Positions 3,049 to 63,311 of a stretch of DNA of 64,000 bases are shown here, one piece after another. The stretch spans positions 3,797,001 through 3,861,000 of the forward strand of contig NZ_CP025117.1 in assembly GCF_002831645.1 (NCBI RefSeq), read 5' to 3'. The notes under the pieces are model-generated. The model saw only the letters and a program-made list of their open reading frames with translations. It ran no database searches and was not told the origin of the DNA. Both the position numbers and the translations under genes were made by a program. The stretch comes from Olleya sp. Bg11-27. GTDB lineage: Bacteria > Bacteroidota > Bacteroidia > Flavobacteriales > Flavobacteriaceae. Position 1 is the first letter of the stretch, and each line of letters opens with the position of its first letter.

Positions 3049-3208
3049 AAAACCTAACAACATTCAAAAAAATGCTTTAACATGCTATTACAAAGAGTTT
3101 AACGGACATTAACATACCTGGTTAATTATTAAGAACTAATTAAGAAGTCTACTTAAAACTGCAAAATATAACTGATTTGTCTTTCTTAAAAAACGGTGTA
3201 AACCAAAA

Positions 3209-47990: not shown

Positions 47991-48188
47991 TTACTTTATT
48001 TAAAGTTTGACAATATATTAAATTTTGTGATTTCGATTGCTATGCCATATACTTTTACGCCCTCTACATAAGACAACAAAAAAAGAATATACCATTACTA
48101 GACGCGTGTTAAATATAAAAAAAACACGTTTCATTGATAGGCCACGTTTCATACACAAACCCGTTAAAAAACGCAATGAATCACGTAA

Positions 48189-48432
48189 AAAAACATAATC
48201 CTAAGATGGTGATTTTTATTCTAAAAAAAAGGACTATTACTTAAAAAGAGATATTATTTTATTTATAAGAATCTGCATTAATATTTCTAATACAAAATTC
48301 CAGTAATTTGAGTCGACCATAAACCCGTGTTTTAGTCAGCTTTATTTTAACTATTATTTTGACATAACATCAATTACCTATTTGACTTTCTCAAAATATT
48401 CAACTAACTTCGTTTAGCAATCCATATCATTT
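48189..48432 (+). repeat. Array frame copy A (terminator, pepD tail, promoter)
   Basis: The leftmost recognisable frame. A decayed terminator (CATAATCCTAAGATGGTGAT from 48194) is followed by a pepD-tail copy at about 48269-48318 (TAATACAAAATTCCAGTAAT) and a promoter (TTTG 48381-48384, TAACTTCG 48405-48412). The cassette it serves is the DUF3024/UPF0158 pair. A decayed cassette end (CCCGTTAAA) precedes it at 48160. Confidence 0.65.
48381..48412 (+). promoter_or_regulatory. Array promoter A
   Basis: TTTG and TAACTTCG separated by exactly 20 bp, 77 bp upstream of the DUF3024 gene. Confidence 0.65.
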
Positions 48433-48488
48433 AACCTTACGGAACCCAGTAAGCTATATATTGTGCACATACTAAAAAACATAATTAA

Positions 48489-48833
48489 ATGAAAAACACC
48501 ACAATTGATATAAACGAATCAACTGTAAAAAATTATGTAGAATCATTACGTCCTGAAGATCTTGACATCCGTACAAAACTGGATTTCGGATATTCTTATG
48601 ATAAAAAAGTAGTCATTATTTATAAAATAAGACCAGTGTGGAATAATCCAAAAAAAACTCAGAATATCGAGTATGTCAAAATCAGATTTTATAAATCAAA
48701 ACAAGAGTGGCTTTTATACTGGAAGCGAGCAAGTGGAAAATGGGAAATTTATCCTTCTTCTAAAGGTTCAACGCATTTAGAAAAAATAATAGAAATGATA
48801 AAAGAAGATAAACATGGGTGTTTTTTTGTATAA
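48489..48833 (+). CDS. DUF3024-domain protein
   Basis: A 114-residue protein matching DUF3024 through YDKKVVIIYKIRPVWNNPKKTQ, AKIRFYKSKQEWLLYWKR-type strands and WEIYPSSKG ... DKHGCFFV at the end. Members are small single-domain proteins of unknown function found in accessory DNA. It overlaps the UPF0158 gene by 20 nt, and both sit in the first array cassette. Confidence 0.75.
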   Translation: MKNTTIDINESTVKNYVESLRPEDLDIRTKLDFGYSYDKKVVIIYKIRPVWNNPKKTQNIEYVKIRFYKSKQEWLLYWKRASGKWEIYPSSKGSTHLEKIIEMIKEDKHGCFFV

Positions 48834-49251
48834 TACTGAACAGAATAGCGTTAAAAGAATCGCGGAAGAATTAGATTCTGGATTTGATTGTTATTATAAC
48901 TCAAAATCCGATGACATTATAGCAATCCCAAGTGTTTCACTATTTTCAGACGAGGAAGATTTTAAAGAGGCTTTTCAAACTCAGTTAGAAACAATCGAAA
49001 AACATGAAACGGATTTTATCAAATTTGAAGTTTTGCAAAGTTTTCAGTCCTTTAAAATTATGGAACAATTTGTTAAGTTGATCACTGACCAAATGCTTAA
49101 AGCAGAATTGGAACAAATTTTAGCAAATAAAAAACCTTTTCAAAATTTTAAATACAAAATTGACCATTCGGAGTTTAGACAAGATTGGTTTGATTTTAAA
49201 CGAAATGCGTTAGAAAAAATAGTAGTAAATCAATTAAACAATCCTATATAA
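48814..49251 (+). CDS. UPF0158-family protein
   Basis: A 145-residue protein resembling UPF0158: an N-terminal EELDSGFDCYYNSKSDDIIAIP, and a helical C-terminal half (KPFQNFKYKIDHSEFRQDWFDFKRNAL). Start overlaps the DUF3024 end by 20 nt, giving translational coupling. No function is known. Confidence 0.7.
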   Translation: MGVFLYNTEQNSVKRIAEELDSGFDCYYNSKSDDIIAIPSVSLFSDEEDFKEAFQTQLETIEKHETDFIKFEVLQSFQSFKIMEQFVKLITDQMLKAELEQILANKKPFQNFKYKIDHSEFRQDWFDFKRNALEKIVVNQLNNPI

Positions 49252-49335
49252 AATACAATTACTGACTACTGACTAAAACACTTCTACTTATCCTAAATAA
49301 ATTACTATCCTAAATTAAATAAAAAAAATATTTTT

Positions 49336-49533
49336 TCAGGAATCTCTTTTAATATTTCTAACACAAAATTCTAGTCTTTTTTTAACCACAAGCTAGTTGC
49401 ATACACTACCAACATTTATCTTGTCTTCTTTTTTACACAACCATAATTACCCATTTGACTTTGTCAAAATTTTAAACTAACTTCGTTTAACTTAGAATAT
49501 AACACTCTGAAACAGAAGCCTATTCGCTATGTA
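49336..49533 (+). repeat. Array frame copy B
   Basis: A pepD-tail copy at about 49336-49380 (AATATTTCTAACACAAAATT) is followed by TAGTTGCATACACTACC, also present in copy D, then the promoter (TTTG 49454, TAACTTCG 49478-49485) and a leader ending TATTCGCTATG. No terminator is preserved. Confidence 0.65.
49454..49485 (+). promoter_or_regulatory. Array promoter B
   Basis: TTTG, 20 bp, TAACTTCG. It overlaps the perfect inverted repeat TTTGACTTTGTCAAA. Confidence 0.65.
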
Positions 49534-49594
49534 ATAGCAGTAATTAAAACAAGGTATTTAACGACACTGAATATCTAATCAAAATAATGAAGGA

Positions 49595-51112
49595 ATGAAA
49601 AAATTAATATTTCTAGCCATATTCTCAATATCTTTAAACCTTTTTGCGCAATCAAACACAGACATTTTTTTATTGGATATAACAAGAACTAATAATAAAA
49701 TCGAATTGATAAATCTTAAAAACATTTCGAATAGTGAAGGTTATGACAACCAACCTTCTTTTTATGATAACAATACTGTTCTTTTCTCTTCCACAAGAAA
49801 CAATCAGACCGATATTAAAAGTTACAATATAAGTAGCCGTGACAATTCTTGGAAAACAAATACTTCCTTCGGTAGTGAGTATTCGCCATTAAAAATACCC
49901 GATGAAGAAGCTGTTTCCTTTGTGCGTTTAGATAAAAGCGGATTACAACGATTGTATCAATATAACTTGGAAACTGAAAAATCTGAAATAATTTTAAAAG
50001 ACTTAAAGGTAGGTTATTACGTTTGGTACAATCAAAATATTTTGGTTTCATCAGTTTTAGTAGATGATAGAATGGATTTAGTTATCTCTAAACTAAAGGA
50101 TAATTCCGATCTAACAATGCATAAAAATGTTGGGCGCTCATTACATAAAATTCCAAATTCTAATTTAATTGGTTTTATAAGTTTCGAAAACAATTCCACT
50201 ATAATAAAAACCCTCAACCCTATAACGGGAGATATAAAAATTATCAAAGCATTACCCATCCCGATTACTGATGTTTGTTGGCTATCAGAAAACAAAATCT
50301 TGATTCCTGATGGTAAAATAATTGCCCAATTCAATACTTTAGAAGATAGCATGAGTATTTTACACCATTTTAAAGAAGATGAAATAAATGGGATTTCCGC
50401 AATTTCGATAAGTCCTGACAGCAAACATTTGGCTCTGGTTTCAGAAGAATCACCGGTTCATTTGATTCAAAAACAATCTCTTGCATTTAACAATAAGGAT
50501 TTAAAAAGTTTTGCATCCTACTATTCTGATAATGTAATTGTTCAAAACTTTCCCAATGACACATTATATGTGGGTAAATCTAAACTAATATCAAATTATA
50601 AAGATATCTTCTCAAGTAATCCCGAAGCCAACGTTCAGGTTTTAAAACGAATAAAAAAAGGAAATATAGTCATCCATGAAGAACGTATAACCATTAACGG
50701 TATAGACAATCATCGCGCTGTATTGTATGAAATACATAACGCAAAGATAGTTAGCAAGACTTTCATTCAGCAGAAAGAAAAACTACCCGAAGCAGAAGCT
50801 ATTGTTCAGCAACAATTAGTAGCATTCAATGCAAAAAACATTGATGCTTTTGTTAAGACCTTCGATAGCGAAGTAAAAGCTTATGACTTCCCGAATAAAC
50901 TTTATGTAGAGGACAAAAAACAGTTACATAAAACTTTTAGTGATTTCTTTTCACAAACAAACGATTTACACTGCAAAATCACAAACCGAATAATTATTGG
51001 AAGTATAGTTATTGATGAAGAATCTTTGACAGTTAATGGCGACAACTTCAATGCGATTGCCATTTATGAAATAGAAAATGGCAAAATTTTAAAAATGACT
51101 ACGATAAGATAA
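49595..51112 (+). CDS. Secreted protein with beta-propeller-like N-terminus and two SnoaL-like domains
   Basis: A 505-residue protein with a signal peptide (cleavage near FAQS), TolB/PD40-like strands in the N-terminal 270 residues (DNQPSFYDNNTVLFSSTRNNQ), and two tandem SnoaL-like (NTF2-fold) domains at about 285-385 and 395-505. The two share the pattern QxxAFNxKxxxxFxxxxx, IVIxEExxxxNG and a closing AIYEIENGKI/VLYEIHNAKI strand. It may bind a small ligand in the periplasm. The fusion is unusual. Confidence 0.68.
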   Translation: MKKLIFLAIFSISLNLFAQSNTDIFLLDITRTNNKIELINLKNISNSEGYDNQPSFYDNNTVLFSSTRNNQTDIKSYNISSRDNSWKTNTSFGSEYSPLKIPDEEAVSFVRLDKSGLQRLYQYNLETEKSEIILKDLKVGYYVWYNQNILVSSVLVDDRMDLVISKLKDNSDLTMHKNVGRSLHKIPNSNLIGFISFENNSTIIKTLNPITGDIKIIKALPIPITDVCWLSENKILIPDGKIIAQFNTLEDSMSILHHFKEDEINGISAISISPDSKHLALVSEESPVHLIQKQSLAFNNKDLKSFASYYSDNVIVQNFPNDTLYVGKSKLISNYKDIFSSNPEANVQVLKRIKKGNIVIHEERITINGIDNHRAVLYEIHNAKIVSKTFIQQKEKLPEAEAIVQQQLVAFNAKNIDAFVKTFDSEVKAYDFPNKLYVEDKKQLHKTFSDFFSQTNDLHCKITNRIIIGSIVIDEESLTVNGDNFNAIAIYEIENGKILKMTTIR

Positions 51113-51137
51113 AATCATATACTCATAAGTACAAATA

Positions 51138-51320
51138 CGTTTCAAGGAAAAAAAATGGGATTGGTTAAACTCTTAAGAGATAACCTTATGTGAAAAGGAT
51201 GATGCGGGGAAAGTAAAAATGACAACAATGGATTATTAAACACAAGAAATGTTTTTGGACGCAGATGGACAAATAACTATTGAAGAGTATTTAAATGCCC
51301 TTATAAAAAAATCAGGATAG
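51138..51320 (+). pseudogene. Remnant of an EF-hand protein gene
   Basis: One frame reads, with two stops (TAA at 51162 and at 51237), TLCEKDDAGKVKMTTMDY and then TQEMFLDADGQITIEEYLNA, ending in a stop at 51318. DADGQITIEEY is a textbook calcium-binding EF-hand loop. The gene has no intact start and is broken; it lies between the SnoaL gene and a cassette tail. Confidence 0.55.
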
Positions 51321-51352
51321 CAGAATGCAAATTCCAACGGACTTGGATAAGT

Positions 51353-51475
51353 TTATGAATAGAAGTCTTATGGGTTTAGCTTTATAATAGAAAAAATAAA
51401 ATGTTTAGCTAAGTTATAAATCGAAACACTAATCCTTACCTCCTGCCTTATGTTTTCTTATACTTAACGTTAAAC
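51353..51475 (+). repeat. Cassette tail related to the 62965-63155 tail
   Basis: TTTAGCTTTATAATAGAAAA and GTTTAGCTAAGTTATAAATC mirror TTTGGCTTTATAAAGAAAAA and TTTGGCTAAGTGCTTAATC of the other tail, in the same order. It ends in CGTTAAACG (51468-51476), as do other cassette ends. Confidence 0.5.
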
Positions 51476-51503
51476 GAAAAAAAATTGGGGTCTTTTACTC
51501 TTT

Positions 51504-51725
51504 TAAAACAAGTCACCTTAATTAAAAGCTTCCTGTTTTTTTTTTATAGATCTCCTTTAATATTTGTGGTACAAAGTTCCAGTATTTTTGAGTCGACGCG
51601 CACTAAATATTTTAATCACCTTTATCTTGTCTTTTGTTTTTATATAACCGTAATTACCCATTTGACTTTGTCAAAATTTTAAAATAACTTCGAATATAAT
51701 GCATTGAAACGGTATTCTATTAGTT
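51504..51725 (+). repeat. Array frame copy C
   Basis: TTTAAAACAAGTCACCTTAA is shared with copy G. A pepD-tail copy at about 51548-51594 (GGTACAAAGTTCCAGTATTT) still reads QKYWNFVPQILKEI on the minus strand. The promoter is TTTG 51661, TAACTTCG 51685-51692; the following GTTTAACTTCG is deleted compared with other copies. Confidence 0.65.
51661..51692 (+). promoter_or_regulatory. Array promoter C
   Basis: TTTG, 20 bp, TAACTTCG, 86 bp before the lipocalin-like gene. Confidence 0.65.
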
Positions 51726-51777
51726 ATATAATCAATTTCAACACCAAAATCTTTAACTTAAATTTTAAAATAAAAAC

Positions 51778-52230
51778 ATGACAACAAAAAATTTCTTTTT
51801 TATTGCAATCATCTCAATTTTCACCTTTAGCTGTGATAATAATAATAATGATGATGACTCCAACTCTAATCCTGAAAATAATCCTGAATCAATTATTGGG
51901 GAATGGAGTTACACATCACAAACTTTAAATGGCGACAATATCGCTTTCCAAGATGAATGCCAACAAAATAATGAACATCAAATTTATAGTTCAAATGGAG
52001 ATTATGAGCAAACTGAATTTGAAAATCTAAGCGGAACTGGTTGCGAACAAGTTACTAGCTCTACAGGAACTTATACACTAGAAAATAACATCCTTAATTT
52101 TACACAAAATGGAGAGCCTTATACGGCACAAATTTTAGAATTAAATGACTCTACATTAAAATATGAATTGTCAATTGACTATGATGATGGTAGCATAGAT
52201 GAATTTACACAAACCTTAACAAAGATTTAA
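51778..52230 (+). CDS. Lipocalin-like lipoprotein
   Basis: A 150-residue lipoprotein (Cys19 in TFSC), a very acidic Asn/Asp linker, then a lipocalin-like barrel (SIIGEWSYTSQTLNGDN, NEHQIYSSNGDYEQTEFE, GTYTLENNILNFTQNGE). Such proteins are common in Flavobacteriaceae, role unknown. Sole intact gene of cassette C. Confidence 0.75.
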   Translation: MTTKNFFFIAIISIFTFSCDNNNNDDDSNSNPENNPESIIGEWSYTSQTLNGDNIAFQDECQQNNEHQIYSSNGDYEQTEFENLSGTGCEQVTSSTGTYTLENNILNFTQNGEPYTAQILELNDSTLKYELSIDYDDGSIDEFTQTLTKI

Positions 52231-52293
52231 AAAAACCAATTTCTAGTTGCTGTATACTTCTTAAACCAAGACAACAACTTTAAATACCACAAT

Positions 52294-52326
52294 AGAAAAG
52301 CACAATCACATGATTGTGCTTTTCTA
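52294..52326 (+). terminator. Array terminator D
   Basis: GAAAAGCACAATCACATGAT followed by TGTGCTTTTC: the pepD-type terminator with two changes in the loop. It ends the lipocalin-like gene. Confidence 0.8.
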
Positions 52327-52432
52327 TTTTTTAATATGTTTCAAAAATAATTAGTCTTTTTTGAACAGAAAAAAGTTGCATACACTACTCGCCTTTATCT
52401 TATCTTCTTTTTTATACAACCATAATTCTCCA

Positions 52433-52464
52433 TTTGACTTTGTCATTTTTTTCAACTAACTTCG
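52433..52464 (+). promoter_or_regulatory. Array promoter D
   Basis: TTTG, 20 bp, TAACTTCG, preserved in full; 82 bp before the 353-residue gene. Confidence 0.7.
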
Positions 52465-52545
52465 TTTAACTTCGAATGTAATGCATTGAAACGGAATCAT
52501 ATTCGCTATACGTTATAGCCAATTAAACAGAACTCACATTAAACT

Positions 52546-53607
52546 ATGAATAATGAGAAAATAAGAATAAACAATGAGTGGGTTTCTATTAATGCAATAA
52601 GGGAATTATTAAAGATTGCTACGCACGGAGATTACACAAAATCCACTTATGATGTTGCGCTTGAACTTGGAGGGGAATTATATCCTGAATTACTAAGTGA
52701 AGAAAACAGTCTTCTGCGTAGAGAAAGACAAAGCACAACAGCTAAAGAATTCATACAACGCGCTAAACTAAAATCAATTCAAGCTGAAAAAGAAATATTT
52801 CCGGTAGATTTAATAGCTGAAGAGATAATTGATATACAATCATTAATTGCACTTGAATCAGAAAAAAGAAGAAACGACCAGCTTAATTTAAGGTTAAGAA
52901 AATTAATAAAAGCAAAAGACGAATTAGGTAAAACAAAGCATACAGAGAATCAGTTAATTTTCAGAGACGCATATAATGTCAATAGAAAGTTACCAATACT
53001 ATTTAAAGGACAATCTTCATTAGATTATGAATTACCAAACTCGAATAATTTAAGAATTAGAGTTTTACATCCCGATAAACCAGAACATATTACTGGAGCA
53101 GATTTAGTCTATGAATATCACCATAAAGAATCTGAGAAAGTAAGTTTGGTTTTTATTCAATATAAAATTTGGGAAAACAAAAAAATGTATTTATCAGACC
53201 CTAGATTAATAAAACAACTTGATAGACTTAGGAAAACGACTTGTGACAAAGGTTTATGCGAATGTACAACCGAAAACAAAGGGTTCAGATTTCCTTTCTG
53301 TTCTAGTTTTCTAAGACCTACAGATGCACTTCAATCCGTTAATCAAAACTTAATTTCTACGGGAGAACATATACCAATTTGCGTTCTTGACAAACTTAAA
53401 GATATTGGTAGTCGTGGCGGAGAATATATAGATTACAAAGGAATTAAAGAACATTCAATTTCAGGCTTATTATTTGAAGAGCTCTTTAATAGAGGGAAAA
53501 TTGGTTCTAAATCATTTTCTTATTCCGAGTTGGAGGAATATTATAAAAGTTTAGAACTTATTGAATCTGGTGGTTCAGTAATAATTTACGCACAGGAATT
53601 GAACTGA
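52546..53607 (+). CDS. Cassette gene of unknown function with nuclease-like and Cys motifs
   Basis: A 353-residue protein not recognised as a known family. The first 135 residues are helical and charged. The middle has E180, D186 in GADLVYEY and QYK at 205-207, an arrangement compatible with a PD-(D/E)XK nuclease fold (inference). Cys233, 238, 240 and 252 (CDKGLCEC ... FCSSF) could bind zinc. The last 90 residues resemble a domain with two beta hairpins (EHIPICVLD, GSVIIYAQEL). It is the only gene of the cassette at 52513-53812; a defence role is possible. Confidence 0.55.
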   Translation: MNNEKIRINNEWVSINAIRELLKIATHGDYTKSTYDVALELGGELYPELLSEENSLLRRERQSTTAKEFIQRAKLKSIQAEKEIFPVDLIAEEIIDIQSLIALESEKRRNDQLNLRLRKLIKAKDELGKTKHTENQLIFRDAYNVNRKLPILFKGQSSLDYELPNSNNLRIRVLHPDKPEHITGADLVYEYHHKESEKVSLVFIQYKIWENKKMYLSDPRLIKQLDRLRKTTCDKGLCECTTENKGFRFPFCSSFLRPTDALQSVNQNLISTGEHIPICVLDKLKDIGSRGGEYIDYKGIKEHSISGLLFEELFNRGKIGSKSFSYSELEEYYKSLELIESGGSVIIYAQELN

Positions 53608-53617
53608 AACAATAACT

Positions 53618-53812
53618 GGCTATAACAATGTATATAAAAAATAGCGCAAGTCGTTGCTAACTCAATGGTTTGTGCATTTTTGGAAAGTCGCCAAATTTTT
53701 AAATTTGACAAATTCCCAAAAATAAAATAATTAATAAAATTTAAAAATTCGGCTTGTGTTCATCCGAAAAGAAACCGCTTATTTTCAGCGCTACTTTTCA
53801 TATACGGAGCCG
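53618..53812 (+). repeat. attC-like foldable cassette tail
   Basis: GTATATAAAAAATAGCGC (53630-53647) pairs with GCGCTACTTTTCATATAC (53788-53805) at 16 of 18 positions. The outer GGCTATAAC pairs with the cassette start. The ends are inverse-repeat arms about 160 bp apart, like a long attC site. The right arm is repeated at 62051-62068. Confidence 0.65.
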
Positions 53813-53836
53813 TTAAACGAACTAAATAAATCATAT

Positions 53837-53869
53837 CTAAAAGCACAATCCTTAAGATTGCGCTTTTTT
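53837..53869 (+). terminator. Array terminator E
   Basis: AAAGCACAATCCTTAAGATT followed by GCGCTTTTTTT; pepD-type hairpin with one arm mismatch. Confidence 0.8.
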
Positions 53870-53990
53870 TATTTATCATAATCTTTTAAAAGCTTGGTAC
53901 AAATACTACTTTCAATTTATAACACCTACTTAGCTTTCTCCAAAATTCAAACTAACTTCGTTGTACAACGACTGTAACACACTGACCTAA
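53837..53990 (+). repeat. Array frame copy E
   Basis: Terminator is good; only a trace of pepD tail remains (TTGGTACAAAT near 53894). The promoter -7 TAACTTCG is at 53953-53960, but the -33 region at the expected distance is degraded (CTTA). It precedes a large secreted-protein gene. Confidence 0.6.
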
Positions 53991-54033
53991 AATACTAAAC
54001 ATTAATTTTAGCAGTGATGATAATTCCCCTCAA

Positions 54034-56109
54034 ATGAGACACCTACACTTTATTATAATTACATTTTTATTAACTTCTTTCAGTGGTTTGGCTCAATTTG
54101 GAGCCGATTATTCTTCCTATGGTTTTAATTTTATCAATGACGCCAACAATCAAGGTTTAAAACACTGGACAGGAAATAATATTGACGACACTAATAAATT
54201 TTACATTTATAAGCAGGACGAATTAAATAATTACGCACTTAAATTAAAACCTGTAAACGAAACTTTAAGCATAAACTATAACGATTTTGGTTACATGGAT
54301 TTAAATCCTTGTGCTTTTAAAATAAATATAAGAGTCAAAATAAATCAATATTCAGGTAATGATGATGCGCTGACATTTACACTATTTACTGGTGCTAAAA
54401 AGGTAGAAATTGATTTTAAATCTAACGGAATATTCTATACCAACAACTCAAATACTTCCCAGTTAATTACAACTGCTGCTCCAATAAGCCAATGGGTAAC
54501 CTACTCTATTGCTCTAGATAATTGTAATGACATGGCGTCAATAATGTTAGAAAACGATGCCACCAATAGTTACACCTTAAGCTTACCAGACAATACAACT
54601 GCACAAAATATAAACCTAACAGCCACAACTAATGGTACAACACCTTTTACATCAGAAATAGACCACTTATTTATCTACAGTAATCCTATTAAATGGTGGT
54701 TAGGACCGTCCAGTGCATTTATCAACGATACGCCTGCGGGTTACACCAGTACAACAGGAGATAGACAGCATTTTTTAACGCTACCTAATGGCGAAAAAAT
54801 AGGTGTTAATAAAAACGGTGGTGGTTATGTTACTTTTACCCAGTTAACTCCTGGTGGCCCAAATCTAGATCCATTTCCTAAATTTGGATCCGGTGGCACA
54901 AAAACACTGAGAGGTTATTTTCATACTAATAAATTTAACCCGGTACAAGCTGGTGTTTCAAGCACATCTGGCGGACATTTAGCAAGCGTTATCTCGCTTC
55001 CTAATAAATTAATGGTCGAGAGTTTTCCGTTACACGCCTATTTCCAAGATGATTTTATTGAAAACACGCCTTTAGTATTTCCTAATAATGAAACACTTGA
55101 AGACGAAAATCATCCTGCCATAATTGATGATGATGTCTATGACGAGTTTGGTCTAGATATGAGACACGAATTAATGAGCGAATTAGACTTTAATACATCA
55201 ATAGAAAACGTCACACAACCAAACGGAATATCTACCGTTAGACATGTTGCCGAGTGGGAATATATAAGACATCCTTCTTTTATCCTTCAGTTTCATGAAG
55301 TCACCGTTAATAAACGACCAGAATTTGAAAGCTTTATTGGTGGCAACAACGATATGGGAGACATGAGACATAAGTTTGAATTCAGACTTAATAAAGACTT
55401 GGGTTACGAGTGGATTTTGTGGAGAGACACCAACAATACATGGCAATCATTGCATGTGGAAGCAGTTGGAGATTCTAAACAAATTCAAATTACTATAAAT
55501 ACGCCATTAGAAAACCGCTTTTTAGTCTTTTCTACATCCTCCAATCCTGACACCCCTGGAGCTGTCTCTTGGTTTTATCCTGAAAGTGATTTTAATACTA
55601 ACAGTACTTTACAAAAAAGCAGAGTAAACCAAAACACAATGATGTCCATGGATAGAAGAAACTCCATGAAAATAGTTGCCGATTGGAGAAAAACAAACTG
55701 GTGTAGAATGAATTTATATATTAGAAACGAGGGCTTAGCTGCACCATGTAATGGAGATCCAAATCTGTATGAAGCGTTCCAAATAGAAGCTTTACAACTG
55801 TTTGGCACACCAAATCAAATCCTTAATAACGTTTTAAATTACACTACTACTTTAAATACTGAAGCAGTAAGTTTAATTAAAACAACCATTGCTTACCCAA
55901 ATGCTTTTTTATCCAAAATAACAATAAAAGGATCTAACCTTCTAAACGAAACACTTAAACTCTATACTGTTTTAGGTAAAGATATTACACATGCATTACA
56001 CGTAACATCGCGCACAAACAAGAAAATACAACTTAAAATAAAAGGCTTAAATTCTGAAATATATTTTCTGAAAATTGGATACAAAACCATAAAAATTCAT
56101 AAAGAATAA
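54034..56109 (+). CDS. Secreted protein with laminin-G-like N-terminus and T9SS-like tail
   Basis: A 691-residue protein with a signal peptide (cleavage near GLAQ), an N-terminal jelly-roll-like part (KINQYSGNDDALTFTLFTGA), a central region with unusual motifs (LPNGEKIGVNKNGGGYVTFTQL, GYFHTNKFNPVQAGVS, RHVAEWEYIRHPSFILQFHE) and a C-terminal type IX secretion-like domain (AYPNAFLSKITIKGSNLLNE ... KTIKIHKE). Several His/Tyr/Asp residues in the middle suggest an enzyme such as a lyase or hydrolase of polysaccharide. Family not identified. Largest cargo of the array. Confidence 0.65.
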   Translation: MRHLHFIIITFLLTSFSGLAQFGADYSSYGFNFINDANNQGLKHWTGNNIDDTNKFYIYKQDELNNYALKLKPVNETLSINYNDFGYMDLNPCAFKINIRVKINQYSGNDDALTFTLFTGAKKVEIDFKSNGIFYTNNSNTSQLITTAAPISQWVTYSIALDNCNDMASIMLENDATNSYTLSLPDNTTAQNINLTATTNGTTPFTSEIDHLFIYSNPIKWWLGPSSAFINDTPAGYTSTTGDRQHFLTLPNGEKIGVNKNGGGYVTFTQLTPGGPNLDPFPKFGSGGTKTLRGYFHTNKFNPVQAGVSSTSGGHLASVISLPNKLMVESFPLHAYFQDDFIENTPLVFPNNETLEDENHPAIIDDDVYDEFGLDMRHELMSELDFNTSIENVTQPNGISTVRHVAEWEYIRHPSFILQFHEVTVNKRPEFESFIGGNNDMGDMRHKFEFRLNKDLGYEWILWRDTNNTWQSLHVEAVGDSKQIQITINTPLENRFLVFSTSSNPDTPGAVSWFYPESDFNTNSTLQKSRVNQNTMMSMDRRNSMKIVADWRKTNWCRMNLYIRNEGLAAPCNGDPNLYEAFQIEALQLFGTPNQILNNVLNYTTTLNTEAVSLIKTTIAYPNAFLSKITIKGSNLLNETLKLYTVLGKDITHALHVTSRTNKKIQLKIKGLNSEIYFLKIGYKTIKIHKE

Positions 56110-56244
56110 TTCTATTTTGGAGTTTTAAATTAACTTCGTTTTGATTAAAATTCAGGTTTAGCTAGTAATTAACCCAAACAAAAGTGTTTTTTTTAACCGC
56201 CCGAGGTTTCATACAAAAGACGTTAACCAAACCTAAATTAAAAA

Positions 56245-56390
56245 AGACCTCTCCTTTTTTTTATGAATCTCCTTTAATTTTTCTAATACAAAGTTCCAGT
56301 GTTTTTGAGCAAACTATACTGCTCATTTAATTTTGATAAAATGCTCCACTAACTTCGTTTATCTGAGGATATAATTCATTGGAGCGCACT
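56245..56390 (+). repeat. Array frame copy F
   Basis: A pepD-tail copy at about 56263-56310 (TAATACAAAGTTCCAGTGTT); the hairpin is lost. Promoter -7 TAACTTCG is at 56350-56357 with TTTA where TTTG is expected. A cassette end CGTTAACC precedes it at 56221, and TTTCATACAAAAGA resembles the end of the tail at 53795. Confidence 0.6.
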
Positions 56391-56617
56391 TATATTATCT
56401 TTAACGTTAACAAAAAGGCAAAACCAAGATTACAAGATAAAAGAAGAATTAATTAGTCCCAAAATCATTTAATTTTTAATCATAGATTTACTTTATCTAA
56501 TCAAAACGTGGTTTAATCAAATGAAATTAACGTTTATTCAATCAGTGTTTTTAACAACAAAATTAACTAGTTACTTTTATAAAGACATATTAACTTTAAT
56601 CTAAAACTATTTTCTTT

Positions 56618-57376
56618 ATGAAATTAAAAATACTTTTCTTTTTTTTAATTGGGGTGTTGTTTACCAACATTTCTTTTAGTCAAAATACACCTATACCTTC
56701 TGGAAGTTTTAATGTAGCATCAGATGTTAATGATTGGACTATTTTACCAAATACAGTATCTAAATCTTGGTTTAATGGAGGTTGTCAAACAATGTTTGTT
56801 GATAATCTTCCAAATACCCAAACAGCAATTATTACATCACCAATTTTTAATATTGGGTCACCTGGTGATTATGAGCTAGAATTAGAGTATGGCGTAATTT
56901 ATTCTACAACTGCTGCAGTATTTGAATTAATAGATGATAATAGTATTGTTCTTAGTGCTTCTACAAATAACACTATTACTGGTACATGTACAGATTGGCC
57001 AAACCCTAAAAAGAGCACTTTAGTTTTTTCTAATTTGAGCTCAGGGGACTATCAACTAAGAATAACGATACCTAAATCACAGTTTTTTATCGATGGCGTA
57101 AGTTTAGGTATTACAAACACATTATCTGTACATAATTATAAATTAAAAGAGGCATTAATTATATCTCCAAACCCTACAAATGACACACTTCTAATAAATT
57201 TAAATTATTCAGGAAACTACTCATTATTTAATATTAATGGTCAATTATTACAAAAAGGAAGTTTAAATATAGGAGAAAATATTCTAGACATAACAAATTT
57301 ACCTAATGGCTTATACCTAATGAAGACGACAACGTTGGAAGGAAAAACTTTTGCTAACAAAATTTTAAAAAAATAA
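56618..57376 (+). CDS. Secreted protein with T9SS sorting domain
   Basis: A 252-residue protein with a signal peptide (cleavage near SFSQ), a jelly-roll-like domain (about residues 22-165) and a type IX sorting domain from about 185 (ISPNPTNDTLLINLNYSG ... GKTFANKILKK). No catalytic motif is visible, so a surface adhesin or binding protein is likely. The leader upstream is unusually long (about 230 bp). Confidence 0.72.
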   Translation: MKLKILFFFLIGVLFTNISFSQNTPIPSGSFNVASDVNDWTILPNTVSKSWFNGGCQTMFVDNLPNTQTAIITSPIFNIGSPGDYELELEYGVIYSTTAAVFELIDDNSIVLSASTNNTITGTCTDWPNPKKSTLVFSNLSSGDYQLRITIPKSQFFIDGVSLGITNTLSVHNYKLKEALIISPNPTNDTLLINLNYSGNYSLFNINGQLLQKGSLNIGENILDITNLPNGLYLMKTTTLEGKTFANKILKK

Positions 57377-57490
57377 GTGAAACATCGCTAAATTAAAAGC
57401 TTTTGGTGCGTACTGAACATTATACTTAACTGAAATTTCACCCTTTCATAACTACCAACTTTTAATATACAAATCGTTAAACTACTCTAT

Positions 57491-57523
57491 AAAAAAGCAC
57501 AATCCTAAGATTGTGCTTTTTTA
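57491..57523 (+). terminator. Array terminator G
   Basis: AAAAAGCACAATCCTAAGAT followed by TGTGCTTTTTT, the perfect pepD-type hairpin. Confidence 0.85.
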
Positions 57524-57670
57524 TATTTTAAAACAAGTAACCTTAATTAAAAGCCTAATATTATTTTTTGGACCGCGGTTAATATTTCTAATACAAAGTT
57601 CCTGTATTTTTAATAAGGCGATAATTTCGTGTAATAATAATTTTCATTTTGATACAACAATAATTCCCCA

Positions 57671-57702
57671 TTTGCCTTTATGAATATTTTAAACTAACTT
57701 CG
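57671..57702 (+). promoter_or_regulatory. Array promoter G
   Basis: TTTG, 20 bp, TAACTTCG; the TTTGAC repeat reads TTTGCC here, as in copy I. Confidence 0.65.
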
Positions 57703-57771
57703 TTTAGCTTTGGATGTAATTCATTTTAATGAAATCAAATTATTTACACACCACAACGATTTAAATAAACT

Positions 57772-58125
57772 ATGGTATTAATTTATTCTTTAGGTATTTT
57801 TACTCTTATTTCAATCGGAATCTATTATTTTATTTGGAAAGACAGACTGAATGACAAAAAGAATTTGGAAAAAGATTGGCAGACGTTTCTTAAATATGAA
57901 TCTTTAAATGACAGAAAAGGAATCGCTATTAGTGGTGATAAATTAATTTGGAATAGATACCTGTTAACAGAACAACTTGACGCAATAATAGATGTGGTAA
58001 AGTCAAAAACATCTAGTTTCCCTGAATTGAAAAATTTAGAAAATAATGCATTTAATAAAAAGTTACATTTTGATCGACCTTTACCTTCTCCTGGTAGTAG
58101 TGGAGGAATAAAACAAAGTTGGTAA
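57772..58125 (+). CDS. Small membrane protein of cassette G
   Basis: A 117-residue protein with one N-terminal transmembrane helix (about residues 3-20) and a charged cytoplasmic or periplasmic domain (KNLEKDWQTFLKYESLNDRK). The end is rich in Pro, Gly and Ser (RPLPSPGSSGGIKQSW). No known family. Confidence 0.6.
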   Translation: MVLIYSLGIFTLISIGIYYFIWKDRLNDKKNLEKDWQTFLKYESLNDRKGIAISGDKLIWNRYLLTEQLDAIIDVVKSKTSSFPELKNLENNAFNKKLHFDRPLPSPGSSGGIKQSW

Positions 58126-58291
58126 TTTACCCCAAAATAAACAAAGACAGTACATAACAACAACGAGAAATCTTTACAATAAATTAAATGCTTAACGTAT
58201 TTAGTCTAATTAGTTACAATTAGAAAACCCCTCGCTTTCTAACCCATAGCCACTCTCTTGCACGCATACGTAACTAAACATTTAAGTTCCA

Positions 58292-58834
58292 ATGAAAATT
58301 AAAATAAAATATATTGCTTTAGGTCTTTTTCTAATTGATGCGATTTTTATAATAATCAATATAAAATATCGTGATCAAACACTAAGTGTGGTACCCGGTT
58401 TAAATCAGACTAAATTCTTTTTTTTCTTAGGAACTCTTAGTTTTATTGCTTACTTAATTTTATTAAAACAAAAAAAATCATTACAACTTGCCGCGATTAT
58501 TACCATTACTTCACTCAGTATTGCGATGTATAACAACTTGCGATTAGCAAAAGATAATTATGATAGAATCCAGTGTCTTAAAGGAATATCTGAGTATTTT
58601 CAATACTTTGAAAATGACTCGTGTTCAAAAATTGAAAAGAAGTTTAAAGAGGATGTCATAAACGGCACAATAAAATATTTTCAAGATGAATATAATTTCG
58701 ATTTGGAATTTGAAGAGAGATTAAGAGACAAATATAATGTTGAACTAGTCGGAATAAGTTGCACTAGATATAGCGCAATGAATTGCTACAACGACCTAGT
58801 AAAGGATCACATCAAAAAACTAAAGGAAAGATAA
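58292..58834 (+). CDS. Hypothetical membrane protein
   Basis: A 180-residue protein with about three transmembrane segments in the first 95 residues and a C-terminal soluble part with four Cys (CLKGISEYFQYFENDSC; SCTRYSAMNC) that could form disulfides. Family not recognised. No frame copy precedes it, so it may share cassette G. Confidence 0.6.
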   Translation: MKIKIKYIALGLFLIDAIFIIINIKYRDQTLSVVPGLNQTKFFFFLGTLSFIAYLILLKQKKSLQLAAIITITSLSIAMYNNLRLAKDNYDRIQCLKGISEYFQYFENDSCSKIEKKFKEDVINGTIKYFQDEYNFDLEFEERLRDKYNVELVGISCTRYSAMNCYNDLVKDHIKKLKER

Positions 58835-58871
58835 CTATCTGCAGTATTAAACTTAATATTCAACTTAATAT

Positions 58872-58950
58872 TTAACCATTTGACTTTATCAAAATATTCC
58901 GCTAACTTCGTTTTGAACCAAATATAATTAGTTAAAACAAAATCCCATTC
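58872..58950 (+). repeat. Array frame copy H (promoter part only)
   Basis: TTTG 58879-58882, TAACTTCG 58903-58910 at 20-bp spacing and a TTTGACTTTATCAAA inverted repeat; the leader is altered (CGTTTTGAACC). No terminator or pepD tail remains. Confidence 0.55.
58879..58910 (+). promoter_or_regulatory. Array promoter H
   Basis: TTTG, 20 bp, TAACTTCG, 69 bp before the hydrolase gene. Confidence 0.6.
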
Positions 58951-58978
58951 GATTTACATTATACTTAATTTCTCTAAA

Positions 58979-59782
58979 TTGAAAAACAAAAAATATATAA
59001 CCATAATTCTATTGTTTTTAAGCTTTCATAATTATTCACAATCTAACAGCAAAGCATTTAATGAATCATTAATTATTTCAATTAACCAAGATTCTATTTC
59101 GGCTTATGCTTTTATAGCTAAAGGCGCTGCGCCAAAAGAAACTGTTATTTTATTACATGGACTTCCTGGCAATGAAAAAAATATTGATTTAGCAGAAAAA
59201 TTAAGACAGGATGGTAAAAATGTAATTTACTTTAATTATCGAGGGTCATGGGGAAGTCAAGGTCAATTTTTATATTCAAACTGTTTGGAAGATATTTCGA
59301 AAGTTATAGATTACTTAACAAATGACATAATCTCTAAAAAATTACGGATTAAGAAAAACTCCTTTTGTTTATTAGGACATAGCCTAGGAGGAGGAATTGC
59401 GGTACTTCATGGCGTAAAAGATAATCGTGTAAAAAAAATAATAGCTCTATCGGCATTTAATGCTGGTTACGAACTAAATAATGATAGCTTTGATGAACTA
59501 AAAAGTTTTCAAAACTACTTAAACAAACAGTTTATGCTAAATATTGATACTAAAAAATTTATTAGTGAGGTATTAAACCATTATATATCATGGAACTTAT
59601 TGTTTGTAAATTCATATCAATTTGACAAACGTCTTATATTTATAGATGAAAACAAGAACAACTACTCTTGGGTAAAAAGTATTAAGAATAGTGAGTATTT
59701 GATAATAGATTCTGATCATTCTTTTTCAGATATGCGCAATGAATTAGCTATTGAAGTCCTAAAATGGATAAATAAAAACTAG
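58979..59782 (+). CDS. Secreted alpha/beta hydrolase
   Basis: A 267-residue protein with TTG start and a signal peptide (cleavage near NYSQS). Motifs are LLHGLPGNEKN, the nucleophile GHSLGGG near residue 137, and SDHSF near 254 with the catalytic His. The TTG start is supported because it gives an exact signal peptide. Likely an acyl hydrolase of periplasmic substrates. Confidence 0.75.
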   Translation: MKNKKYITIILLFLSFHNYSQSNSKAFNESLIISINQDSISAYAFIAKGAAPKETVILLHGLPGNEKNIDLAEKLRQDGKNVIYFNYRGSWGSQGQFLYSNCLEDISKVIDYLTNDIISKKLRIKKNSFCLLGHSLGGGIAVLHGVKDNRVKKIIALSAFNAGYELNNDSFDELKSFQNYLNKQFMLNIDTKKFISEVLNHYISWNLLFVNSYQFDKRLIFIDENKNNYSWVKSIKNSEYLIIDSDHSFSDMRNELAIEVLKWINKN

Positions 59783-59904
59783 AGACTATTGTGTTGTTGT
59801 TGTTTTTATAATACCTCATTACTGTTTTCGCTAATTATTAAAGCTTTTTTAAGTTTTAGTAAACAATAGTGGCGTATATCACTTTACTTTTTGTTTAACA
59901 CAAG

Positions 59905-59996
59905 AGTAATTCCCCATTTGCCTTTATGAATATTTTAAACTAACTTCGTTTAGCTTTGGATATAATTCATTAAAACGGAATCAAATTCGCTACAGG
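59905..59996 (+). repeat. Array frame copy I (promoter part only)
   Basis: Almost identical to copy G from CCCCATTTGCCTTTATGAAT to TTTGGAT, with TTTG 59917 and TAACTTCG 59941-59948, and leader AAAACGGAATCAAATTCGCT. No terminator or pepD tail. Confidence 0.65.
59917..59948 (+). promoter_or_regulatory. Array promoter I
   Basis: TTTG, 20 bp, TAACTTCG, 65 bp before msrA. Confidence 0.65.
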
Positions 59997-60012
59997 CTAG
60001 CACTAATTAAAA

Positions 60013-60549
60013 ATGACAAAAAAAGAACAAACAGGATCAATAGAAACGATATATCTAGCGGGCGGATGCCTTTGGGGCGTGCAAGAGTTTTTAAAACACA
60101 TCCCTGGTGTGGTTGATACTCAAGCCGGCAGAGCTAATGGCGTTACACAATCCACTAAAACAACCTATGATGGTTTTGCAGAATGTGTCAAAACAGATTT
60201 TGACTCTTCCCTTGTTTCGTTTGAAGAGTTAATACATTACTTGTTAGAAATCATTGACCCTTATAGTATAAACAAACAAGGAAATGATATAGGAGAAAAA
60301 TATCGCACAGGTATCTACAGCACGGACAAAAATCTTCTTTTAAAAGCAAAACAGTGTATTAAGACAATAGACCAAACGCTAAATGATAAAAATAAAACCA
60401 CAAAAAAAATAGCGATTGAAGTACTTCCTTTAACAAATTTTATCCCAAGTGATGCAGAACATCAAGATAGACTAACCTTACACCCTAGTGACTACTCTTA
60501 TTGCCACATTCCTTTAGACTTACTGTATAAGTATAAAAACAATAACTAA
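60013..60549 (+). CDS. msrA: Peptide-methionine (S)-S-oxide reductase
   Basis: A 178-residue enzyme that repairs oxidised methionine. YLAGGCLWGVQEFLK holds the catalytic Cys in GCLWG (canonical GCFWG, so a Phe to Leu change), DPYSINKQGNDIGEKYRTGIY is the substrate region, and SDAEHQDRL follows. The C-terminus lacks an obvious resolving Cys pair. It is carried in the array under promoter I, so it may be a recent acquisition. Confidence 0.88.
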   Translation: MTKKEQTGSIETIYLAGGCLWGVQEFLKHIPGVVDTQAGRANGVTQSTKTTYDGFAECVKTDFDSSLVSFEELIHYLLEIIDPYSINKQGNDIGEKYRTGIYSTDKNLLLKAKQCIKTIDQTLNDKNKTTKKIAIEVLPLTNFIPSDAEHQDRLTLHPSDYSYCHIPLDLLYKYKNNN

Positions 60550-60649
60550 TATTAAACTAGGTGACTAGAATGTTGTCAAGACTGTAATTTAAAATAAGAA
60601 TCACCAATCGTAATCGGCTTATCTATTCATAATTAACAAGCACTTAGAA

Positions 60650-61525
60650 CTATTCCTTTATATATTTGTTTCTTTTATTTAGGTATTGGTTAATGGTAAG
60701 AGAAGCAAAAATAAGACTACCACCAATTAAAATCTTCTTAATATCTGCCTCCTTATTCCATATAAGAAGGTTGACAATTAATCCTAACGGAATCAACGCA
60801 TTGTTCATAATTGCTAACGCGCCCGTATTTACCCTAATAACACCTTGGTTCCAAAAAAAATAACCTAGACCTGAAGCCACAGCTCCTAGGTATAGTAATA
60901 CGCTCCATTGTATTGGTGTCGTTGGCATCTTTTCGGTTGAACCAAAAATAAAAAAAGCAATCAGAGACACTATAAACGCCCCAATAAAAAATAATCCAAA
61001 AATAGTATGCTTTGGTGTATTTTTCAATTGAGGTGTAGATCTTAATACATACTTATAGGCAACTTGACCAACAGCAAAGCATAAATTAGCACCCTGGGTG
61101 ATCAAAAAACCTAAAACTACATTTTCACTAATACTTGAATATTGAATATAAGCTGCACCTAAAACAGCTATTAAAGCCGTTAGTAAATAGCCTTTATGAA
61201 ATTGCTTGCTTAAAATATCATTTAACAACGTAATGTAAATGGGGGTAAACACACTAAAAAGTAACACTTCAGGTACAGTAAGATAGTTAAACGACTGAAA
61301 ATAAAAGCAATACATTAAACCTAATTGCACCGCACCAATTGCAGTCAGTTTAAAAATTGTTTCTGCTTTAATTTTATTAAGTCTTAAAAAAGGTAAAAAT
61401 AGCAGTGTAGCGATACCTATACGCATCAATACAGAAAACCATGCATCAACAACCCCAGAAAGGTATACTCCAATTAAACTAAACGAAAACGCCCAAATAA
61501 TAGTAACTCCTAATAAATACCTCAT
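60650..61525 (-). CDS. EamA-family drug/metabolite transporter
   Basis: A 291-residue membrane protein with ten hydrophobic segments in two EamA halves (IGVYLSGVVDAWFSVLMRIGIATLLFLP; SVLLYLGAVASGLGYFFWNQGV). It exports small molecules. The ATG at 61525 is preferred to 61573 because the core starts with the MRYLLGV helix. It is the only minus-strand gene inside the array. Confidence 0.82.
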   Translation of the reverse strand: MRYLLGVTIIWAFSFSLIGVYLSGVVDAWFSVLMRIGIATLLFLPFLRLNKIKAETIFKLTAIGAVQLGLMYCFYFQSFNYLTVPEVLLFSVFTPIYITLLNDILSKQFHKGYLLTALIAVLGAAYIQYSSISENVVLGFLITQGANLCFAVGQVAYKYVLRSTPQLKNTPKHTIFGLFFIGAFIVSLIAFFIFGSTEKMPTTPIQWSVLLYLGAVASGLGYFFWNQGVIRVNTGALAIMNNALIPLGLIVNLLIWNKEADIKKILIGGSLIFASLTINQYLNKRNKYIKE

Positions 61526-61730
61526 AAATACATCCTTAATCAAATAAATGATGGTAAACAGTACACAAACCACTTACCGCTTTAGCTAAAATCTTTACTT
61601 CAAAGCGAATATATAAAATTAGAGAAATTAAAGACCATGATTTTTATTTAATGCTTTGGCAACAATCATTAAAATGCTCTAACTAGTGCCTGTTTTGAAT
61701 GAGAGAATGGAACAAAAGAAAGCATTAATT

Positions 61731-61813
61731 ACCTGTTTGAAGTTGTCCTTTTTTCAACTAACTTCGTTTAACTTTGAATACAAATCATTGAAAAGTAATC
61801 ATATTCGCTATAC
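61731..61813 (+). repeat. Array frame copy J (promoter part only)
   Basis: TTTG 61736, TAACTTCG 61759-61766 with a 19-bp spacer, then ATTGAAAAGTAATCATATTC-GCTATAC. No terminator or tail left. Confidence 0.65.
61736..61766 (+). promoter_or_regulatory. Array promoter J
   Basis: TTTG, 19 bp, TAACTTCG; 61 bp before the truncated secreted gene. Confidence 0.6.
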
Positions 61814-61826
61814 TTTAAGAAAAATT

Positions 61827-62081
61827 ATGAACAAGAACATTGCAATCATCATATTAAGTTTTGTATCGACTATTTTAAGTGCCCAAACGAAACCAAATTT
61901 AGCAGATTTATCACCATTGGAAAGTACTAAAATCGTTTTACTCGGCGAGCAAACTCAATATGAAAGTTGCCTAATTTCGAATTTTGATAAATTCAGAAAA
62001 ATAAAAAAATTAGGCTTGTGTTTAATCCGAAAAAGAACAGCTTATTTTCAGCGCTACTTTTTATATACTAAACATCAATAA
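61827..62081 (+). pseudogene. Truncated secreted-protein gene fused to a cassette tail
   Basis: The ATG at 61827 gives a good signal peptide (ISFVST-like, ends TILSAQ) and TKPNLADLSPLESTKIVLLGEQTQYES, which resembles the N-terminus of Bacteroidota erythromycin-esterase-like proteins. From about 61973 the sequence is the cassette tail (LISNFDKFRKIKKLGLCL...), so the gene is cut off and ends by chance at 62081. A larger in-frame start at 61686 begins before the promoter and is not used. Confidence 0.6.
61973..62069 (+). repeat. Half of an attC-like cassette tail
   Basis: AATTAGGCTTGTGTTTAATC, CAGCTTATTTTCAGCGCTAC and CTTTTTATATAC match the right part of the tail at 53745-53805 (CGGCTTGTGTTCATCC, CCGCTTATTTTCAGCG, CTACTTTTCATATAC). 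The left arm was lost with the gene's 3' end. Confidence 0.6.
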
Positions 62082-62219
62082 ATCGCATAAAAAAAGCACA
62101 ATCCTAAGATTGTGCTTTTTCTATTTTATATAATACGACTTAAAAAGATTACTTTTTAGGAATCTCTTTTAATATCTCTAATACAAAGTTCCAGTATTTT
62201 TGAGCAGACGATATTTGTG
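62070..62219 (+). repeat. 150-bp direct repeat, left copy (pepD 3' end plus terminator)
   Basis: It matches 63162-63311 over 150 bp with three differences (62086, 62121, 62182). It begins AAACATCAATAAATCG, contains the terminator (62088-62122) and the last 23 codons of pepD (62149-62217), and ends GATATTTGTG. The repeat unit is 1,092 bp. Confidence 0.92.
62088..62122 (+). terminator. Array terminator K
   Basis: Perfect hairpin AGCACAATCCTAAGATTGTG with A/T runs; a copy of the pepD terminator. Confidence 0.85.
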
Positions 62220-62272
62220 TGTATTAATCAACTTTATCCTGACCTTTATTTTGATACAGTATTAACTGCCAA

Positions 62273-62304
62273 TTTGACTTTGTCATTTTTTTCAACTAAC
62301 TTCG
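62273..62304 (+). promoter_or_regulatory. Array promoter K
   Basis: TTTG, 20 bp, TAACTTCG; 73 bp before the 193-residue gene. Confidence 0.7.
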
Positions 62305-62376
62305 ATTAACTTCGAATATAATTCATTAAAACGGAATCATATTCGCTACACGTTGGCAACAATATAAACCAAATCA

Positions 62377-62958
62377 ATGGAAGTACTTTTTCACTTCATA
62401 TTTCAGTTAATTAAAATCGCAATTCTTGCTTCTATTTATGCTTCAATTTTAATTGGAATTATATTAATTATTGGGAAATTCAAACAGACTGAATTTCTAA
62501 AAAGAGTAAAATCAGAAAAGAAAAAATATTGGTTTTCGTTTGGGGTTTTAATCTCAATCGGACTTTTTGTTTTCTCTTTTACTTATTGGGGAAATCATGG
62601 ACTTGGAGATGGACCTATGATTCCAATTGGACATTGGGAAACGATTGAAAACACGAATTGGACTGAATATGGATATCTAAAAGACAAAAAAACCAAAAAT
62701 GGAAATGACATTGAAACGACAAAATTTAAAGTTACGAACCACAAATTATGTGGAAATCTAAAAAGTTCGTTTTATAATTATGAGAACTCATTCTTTGTAT
62801 TGGACTTGAAAACTGACAAAATAACTGAATTCAAAACAGAATCTGAATTTAATCAATATGCGGAAAAGAACGAATTACCGAAAGTAAATGAACTTTTGAG
62901 CTTTGCAGAGAATTATAGAAATCGCTGGAGTGGAATTAGATTTTTGCTTTTACCATAA
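62377..62958 (+). CDS. Membrane protein of the newest cassette
   Basis: A 193-residue protein with two N-terminal transmembrane segments (about residues 3-28 and 45-68) and a soluble domain (GPMIPIGHWETIENTNWTEY, KITEFKTESEFNQYAEKNELP). Base composition is less biased against G than the old cassettes. Family not recognised. Confidence 0.6.
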   Translation: MEVLFHFIFQLIKIAILASIYASILIGIILIIGKFKQTEFLKRVKSEKKKYWFSFGVLISIGLFVFSFTYWGNHGLGDGPMIPIGHWETIENTNWTEYGYLKDKKTKNGNDIETTKFKVTNHKLCGNLKSSFYNYENSFFVLDLKTDKITEFKTESEFNQYAEKNELPKVNELLSFAENYRNRWSGIRFLLLP

Positions 62959-62964
62959 AATACT

Positions 62965-63155
62965 GTTGCCAAAAAGGGCTATAATTAATACGGGTTTTGG
63001 CGCTTAACCTAAAGTTTAGGCATATTTACGAAGTCCGCCAAATCTTTTTGATTTGGCTTTATAAAGAAAAAGATAAAACAAAATAAAAAGTTTTGGCTAA
63101 GTGCTTAATCGGAAATTAATTACTTTTAATTCCCGTACTAACCATAGCCTAAACG
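62965..63155 (+). repeat. attC-like foldable cassette tail
   Basis: GGCTATAATTAATACGGG (62977-62994) pairs with CCCGTACTAACCATAGCC (63132-63149) at 14 of 18 positions. Inside are CCTAAAGTTTAGG (a small palindrome near 63010) and the two TTTGGC blocks. The layout is a long hairpin with unpaired interruptions, like attC. Confidence 0.6.
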
Positions 63156-63161
63156 TCAAAC

Positions 63162-63311
63162 AAACATCAATAAATCGTATAAAAAAAGCACAATCCTAAG
63201 ATTGTGCTTTTTTTATTTTATATAATACGACTTAAAAAGATTACTTTTTAGGAATCTCTTTTAATATCTCTAAAACAAAGTTCCAGTATTTTTGAGCAGA
63301 CGATATTTGTG
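63162..63311 (+). repeat. 150-bp direct repeat, right copy (native pepD 3' end plus terminator)
   Basis: Native partner of 62070-62219. It contains the pepD terminator (63180-63214) and the last 23 codons of pepD. Homology stops at 63312, inside the pepD coding region. Confidence 0.92.
63180..63214 (-). terminator. Terminator of pepD
   Basis: AGCACAATCCTAAGATTGTG hairpin flanked by A7 and T8, 27 bp beyond the pepD stop; also ends the last cassette from the left. Confidence 0.85.

Follow-up and report, generated by a model that had tools for sequence, protein, structure and literature searches.

Sedentary chromosomal integrons, built from IntI, attI and attC, are the closest described systems to the locus analyzed here. 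They share with it folded attC sites, G|TT joints (the bar marking the joint), complementarity of R'' and R', an attI beside the recombinase gene and tandem arrays of accessory genes; the flavobacterial system differs from them in that its recombinase resembles XerA and lacks the IntI-specific insert, and in that its attI lies behind the integrase gene. According to the current view of integrons, IntI must have its extra domain in order to act on folded attCs, and expression within an array is largely limited to the first cassettes. Secondary genomic cassette sites, named attG, were reportedly described by Loot et al. in 2024; there, too, cassettes are inserted away from the integron, whereas the sites considered below, which we call sockets, are conserved, structured, fused to a promoter, present in many genera and able to multiply into arrays. 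Vibrio superintegrons contain gene-less cassettes that carry promoters, i.e. non-coding array units expressing downstream cassettes (PMC11014356), but in a socket the promoter and the site are interlocked at a fixed place, usually one per cassette, together with a terminator and a fragment of a flanking gene. Delta-attI-type cassettes likewise place copies of an attI-like site among cassettes (PMC12901181); these lie inside mobile integrons, whereas a socket stands alone and is copied with its chromosomal flank. In the IntegronFinder 2.0 survey, Salinibacter ruber is the only complete integron named in Bacteroidetes proper (PMC9024848), and our searches of the open-access literature brought up no account of such integrons from Flavobacteriaceae. 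The integron-like system of marine Flavobacteriaceae apparently has not been described so far. We propose, with a probability of roughly 0.78, that the array beside pepD consists of integron-type cassettes, each in its own copy of a socket that was multiplied together with its flank, and that it belongs to a family-wide integron-like system.

The window, a stretch of 64,000 nucleotides from the single-contig, 4.31-Mb genome of Olleya sp. Bg11-27, contains 11 promoter-leaders, seven copies of the pepD tail and five hairpins between 48.2 and 62.4 kb, to the left of native pepD (Table 1). The promoter-leaders were positioned by a weight-matrix scan. With frame K as query against the whole genome, the native copy was recovered at E = 2.7e-69 and the other array frames at 1e-7 to 4e-36, far beyond chance, and the 11 copies with tails and hairpins claimed in the sequence-only reading are present at the positions given there. 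The same search returned no pepD tail outside its own locus, and exact copies of the 20-nt hairpin occur in the pepD array and nowhere else in the genome. From left to right, the tails are 76, 77, 75, 62 (the degenerate copy), 84, 76 and 98% identical to native pepD, and the 150-bp repeat adjoining pepD is 98% identical. The expectation that divergence is least next to pepD is borne out by the 98% value there, but a smooth gradient with distance is not.

Table 1. Features of the array to the left of pepD (positions in the window).
Feature	Position	Strand	Remark
Promoter-att module A	48380..48462	+	diverged
Promoter-att module B	49453..49535	+	
Promoter-att module C	51660..51732	+	
Promoter-att module D	52432..52514	+	junction CTATACG|TTATAGCCA
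Promoter-att module E	53928..54010	+	weak
Promoter-att module F	56325..56407	+	
Promoter-att module G	57670..57752	+	
Promoter-att module H	58878..58960	+	
Promoter-att module I	59916..59998	+	
Promoter-att module J	61735..61816	+	
Promoter-att module K	62272..62354	+	junction CTACACG|TTGGCAACA
Gene cassette D	52513..53812	+	353-aa gene; own attC at end
Gene cassette K	62353..63155	+	193-aa gene
attC of cassette D	53617..53819	+	model R1, E 5e-9
attC of cassette K	62964..63162	+	model R1, E 8e-6
Leader of frame K	62301..62359	+	scored as attC by model R1, E 8e-4
Degenerate attC-like site	58152..58277	+	model R1, E 0.02
Cargo: DUF3024 protein, UPF0158 protein	48489..49251	+	
Cargo: SnoaL-like protein, 150-aa putative lipoprotein	49595..52230	+	
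Cargo: 691-aa and 252-aa secreted proteins	54034..57376	+	type IX sorting tails (weak for 691-aa)
Cargo: 117-aa and 180-aa proteins, alpha/beta hydrolase, MsrA, EamA transporter	57772..61573		EamA on minus
pepD 3' tail copy	62152..62214	-	regarded as bystander
Further pepD-tail copies	48261, 49332, 51540, 56257, 57563; 52314		52314 degenerate
Native pepD tail	63244		
Native pepD	63241..64000	-	3' part; runs on past window edge
Terminator-like hairpin copy	62095..62114	none	
Other hairpin copies	52299, ~53843, 57496; 48192		48192 diverged
Native hairpin	63187		
Native right flank	63156..63206		|TCAAAC (R' half, one base off TTAAAC), spacer, hairpin

The leader of the frame has the organization of an attC-like recombination site. 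A socket consists, in this order, of a promoter, whose -33/-7 boxes of the Bacteroidota type are kept at the sockets as judged from sequence, R'' TTCGTTTAAC, which the -7 box overlaps, a covarying hairpin and G|TTAAACGAA. Where a gene is present, TTCGTTTAAC and the hairpin are followed by CTATACG and a gene stretch opening with TT, and the flank resumes 3' of the gene with TTAAACGAA, the complement of TTCGTTTAA, so that leader and resumed flank, when joined, yield a complete attC-like site. In other genera, two clean empty sites have this form, one reading TTCGTTTAAC-GATGGATAT..ATATCCATC-GTTAAACGAA (L184) and the second being similar (L216). The arms of the hairpin are CGAATAT/ATATTCG in the host and GGATAT/ATATCC or TGATAT/ATATCA elsewhere; within the genus we counted 13 two-sided changes compared to 5.3 in shuffles, and with other genera included 28 compared to 10.5 (0/500). 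No Rfam family reached its gathering score in the pepD array or the attC arrays, the sole family seen being Flavo-1, near pepD of another species. By their sequence, the repeats are copies of a promoter fused to a putative recombination site, rather than remnants of pepD that serve some function themselves. The sequence-only reading recognized neither the recombination site in the leader nor the integron-like cassette nature of the genes, which is the central point.

The joints of the cassettes are G|TT, and well-preserved cassettes carry their own attC. As in integrons, the cassette start is complementary to R'' of the cassette's own attC: the start of cassette D, TTATAGCCA, pairs with R'' TGGCTATAA, where its attC begins, and that of cassette K, TTGGCAACA, with R'' TGTTGCCAA. 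Such complementarity was found at 8 of the 16 well-kept junctions in the genus, compared to 12.7% in the control (p = 3e-4). This count replaces a plain 8-mer complementarity test, which was dropped as unspecific (9/49 compared to 9.4% in the control). For the search for attC sites, covariance model R1 was trained on 30 attCs from integrase-side arrays of other genera only; those arrays contain 57 attC candidates with chained R'/R'', at least two of which are false. The attCs conform to the integron type, being imperfect inverted repeats with R'' ..AAC, R' GTT.. and a variable loop. Model R1 gave two good scores among the window cassettes, for D and K, and recognized no attC in most of the others, which look decayed by this measure; it scored the leader of frame K as an attC and, with filters off, no other leader of the window. 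In genome G005, each of three frames contains a different cassette, and the attCs of these cassettes are intact and of this same type; in filled sockets of other genera the model matches the cassette ends, mostly with E values of 1e-15 to 1e-23. Genome-wide, the host has about 90 sites, and further attC-like clusters at 1703–1722, 1868–1918, 2611–2624, 3076–3096 and 4004–4008 kb, suggesting that it holds many more cassette arrays than those analyzed here.

Several details of the cargo were recorded in addition. The DUF3024 protein in the outermost cargo unit (48489–48833) matches the PADLOC candidate defence protein PDC-S43. The gene that follows promoter J (61830–62081) appears to be incomplete, and the end of an attC-like element runs into it. 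Another genus has a socket array in which the attCs of the internal cassettes are reduced to their 5' half (L233:760–2200, L232:640–720), so that these cassettes look frozen in place, the last attC alone being intact.

The tyrosine recombinases of the host are XerC, XerD and one further enzyme encoded at 1108 kb. The gene of this integrase (about 1108.69 kb, L054) is frameshifted in an A-rich run, due to either a sequencing error or a real loss, and directly behind it lies an attI (GAG|TT) followed by cassettes in ordinary tandem. The arrangement recurs in the family: in 29 of the 30 closest loci of Flavobacteriaceae, attI is found 15–55 bp behind the integrase stop codon (27 by the strict pattern (T)ATAAC.AG|TT and two by eye), and a first cassette arm was found there in 15. 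As in integrons, attI adjoins the integrase gene and cassettes are joined to it. A search for the integrase family with E up to 1e-30 returned 193 of 299 Flavobacteriaceae genomes, including a distant subgroup of 45–50% identity. The integrase aligns to XerA and IntI4 and carries an N-terminal extension. Its alignment to IntI4 (2A3V) breaks between IntI4 residues 183 and 227, a segment without flavobacterial counterpart, so that the additional domain specific to IntI (patch III region) is absent, and against TIGR02249 it scores 199–201 bits, below the cut-off of 265. No canonical IntI exceeded this cut-off in the host genome, nor in any of 149 genomes, the latter search having no positive control. 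A close homologue of the integrase is absent from G002, G005 and G008 despite the well-kept cassettes in their sockets, and the gene is missing or broken in several socket-bearing genomes, although several genomes of the Olleya group do have an intact copy; considering these three genomes and the frameshift in the host, present activity is doubtful here. In several host arrays, IS1182-like transposase genes lie in or next to attCs (L054:740–2440, L047/L048 at about 2003–2005 kb, L012, L064), which suggests an insertion sequence that targets attC.

Other arrays clarify the role of pepD. In the host, the promoter-leader also occurs with other neighbours and without pepD, in arrays at 2001–2010 and 2480–2490 kb. 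The frame of the former carries the 5' end (first codons) of a hypothetical gene from its own flank, and that of the latter part of a flanking ankyrin-repeat gene; the array at 955–990 kb uses a hairpin of its own, and in place of the leader it has the integrase 3' end copied together with attI. In genus g131, one array copies about 45 nt of its right flank and another the terminator of its left flank. Because other arrays copy the ends of other genes, pepD is a bystander. The sequence-only reading had tied the whole frame to pepD and named frames spread over the genome without pepD as an outcome that would speak against it. Such a spread is found for the promoter-leader part, which severs the proposed link for that part, whereas the pepD tail is confined to its own locus. 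Frames acting as mobile composite cassettes were also considered as the main route and rejected, given this confinement of the tail. Judging from the repeats, the simplest account would be tandem duplication of socket and flank, followed by homologous recombination and cassette exchange.

Among 299 genomes of the family, 47 from 41 of 236 genera contain the 15-nt core comprising promoter and R'', with about 130 matches compared to 15 for the reversed pattern. In these 41 genera, the sockets occur singly, either empty or with cassettes. We inspected 64 socket records, nearly all from other genera and with three sites appearing twice; filled sockets account for 42 of them and empty ones for 4, including the two clean ones, and 18 showed neither a cassette nor an empty site. 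The sequence |TTAAACG lies within 3.2 kb in 38 of the 64 records, compared to 3 of 60 on the opposite strand. A cassette arm complementary to R'' was found in 31 records, and arm plus |TTAAACG in 27, the arm being defined by a simple pattern of which a few matches may be due to chance. A palindrome, TACGTAGAACTACGTA / TACGTAGTTCTACGTA, lies just upstream of a cassette promoter in two different genera (L232:60–90 and L233; L011–L013 in the 955–990 kb array) and may be an operator.

At the pepD locus of relatives, each species represented by one genome, the number of cargo genes to the left of pepD ranges from 1 to about 14 among five genomes of the genus. The data support the pepD 3' flank as a hotspot at which cargo varies: each of the five genomes has another gene beside pepD. 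One of these genes recurs further out in the array of the window, and cargo common to two species is colinear further out. Growth strictly at the pepD end does not follow from the data, as internal positions also differ between species. In the sister species G001 and G008, a single socket lies between a YceI-like gene and the pepD terminator; it holds a single cassette, which is not the same in the two species, and tail copies are absent. Together with the pieces of other neighbours in other host arrays, this lends no support to the idea that the pepD tail is a working part. At pepD, G002, G005, O. namhaensis, G006 and the host have one, three or more frames with tail copies, and G009 has no socket. 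In G002 and G005, the leftmost socket is already flanked on its left by a pepD tail, so that the tails, including the native one, number one more than the sockets. Simple tandem duplication without further loss does not predict this extra copy, which points to either a single-crossover insertion or a later loss at the left end.

That surplus tail would be expected of a device specific to pepD, in which every insertion would be directed to the 3' end of pepD and would leave behind a second hairpin and tail along with a restored pepD, in the manner of tyrosine-recombinase islands that target gene ends. The nearly identical 150-bp repeat at pepD and the changing pepD-adjacent cargo fit such a device as well, yet it is hard to reconcile with two sister species that have the socket and no tail copies, with the fragments of other genes in other arrays, with the absence of pepD tails elsewhere in the genome and with precise junctions that read G|TT on both cassette sides, outside the tail; we consider it unlikely. 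The locus does not match a tyrosine-recombinase island proper at the gene 3' end, since no integrase is found among the listed ORFs of the array or near it among the genome-wide integrase matches, and the sockets of G001 and G008 lack direct repeats. Homologous recombination could also have acted alone, with ordinary promoter-terminator repeats catching genes by unequal crossing-over and the att-like features being decayed and irrelevant. The exact G|TT joints, complementary arms, covarying hairpins, empty sites and family-wide spread make this improbable, even though the host integrase is broken, internal attCs are truncated in another genus and the frames remain at their own locus. Slightly less probable still is that the leader hairpin primarily regulates the cassette promoters as an RNA element and resembles attC only secondarily: lying downstream of the -7 box, it would be transcribed, and its covariation would equally fit an RNA, but cassettes are joined exactly at the leader end and at its TTAAACGAA complement, and an attC model derived from non-promoter sites recognizes the leader. 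The two roles of the leader can coexist.

In the integron-type reading, a cassette circle would be inserted at G|TT of the socket, such that the promoter reads straight into the gene, and the terminator beyond TTAAACGAA would close the cassette unit. Cassettes would be supplied by the system with the XerA-like recombinase and attI behind its gene, this enzyme presumably carrying out the insertion, and sockets would be scattered singly over Flavobacteriaceae genomes. At pepD of Olleya, the socket would have been multiplied with part of its flank, namely the terminator and the pepD 3' end, by tandem duplication or by homologous recombination between frames. As a result of this joint multiplication, each cassette would have a promoter, a site and usually a terminator, and the cassettes are probably switched on one by one by their sockets. 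Integron-like, rather than integron proper, is the best label for the system, because the defining IntI domain is absent and the recombination side is read from sequence. A broader claim appears to us evenly balanced, namely that Flavobacteriaceae possess a separate, family-wide class of integrons, in which a XerA-like recombinase uses folded attCs without the IntI domain and solitary capture-and-express sockets, about ten in the richest genomes, occur anywhere in the chromosome and multiply locally to give one promoter, site and terminator per gene.

For the biology of the family, this means that Flavobacteriaceae appear to have integron-like cassettes with a recombinase that lacks the extra domain of IntI. 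They also appear to have a second solution to cassette expression, with the promoter built into the capture site at many genomic places. If confirmed, this would add for Flavobacteriaceae a system of gene exchange that goes unnoticed under the standard integrase criterion; it would also provide a test of the purpose of the IntI domain and possibly a tool for inserting expressed cassettes in Bacteroidota.
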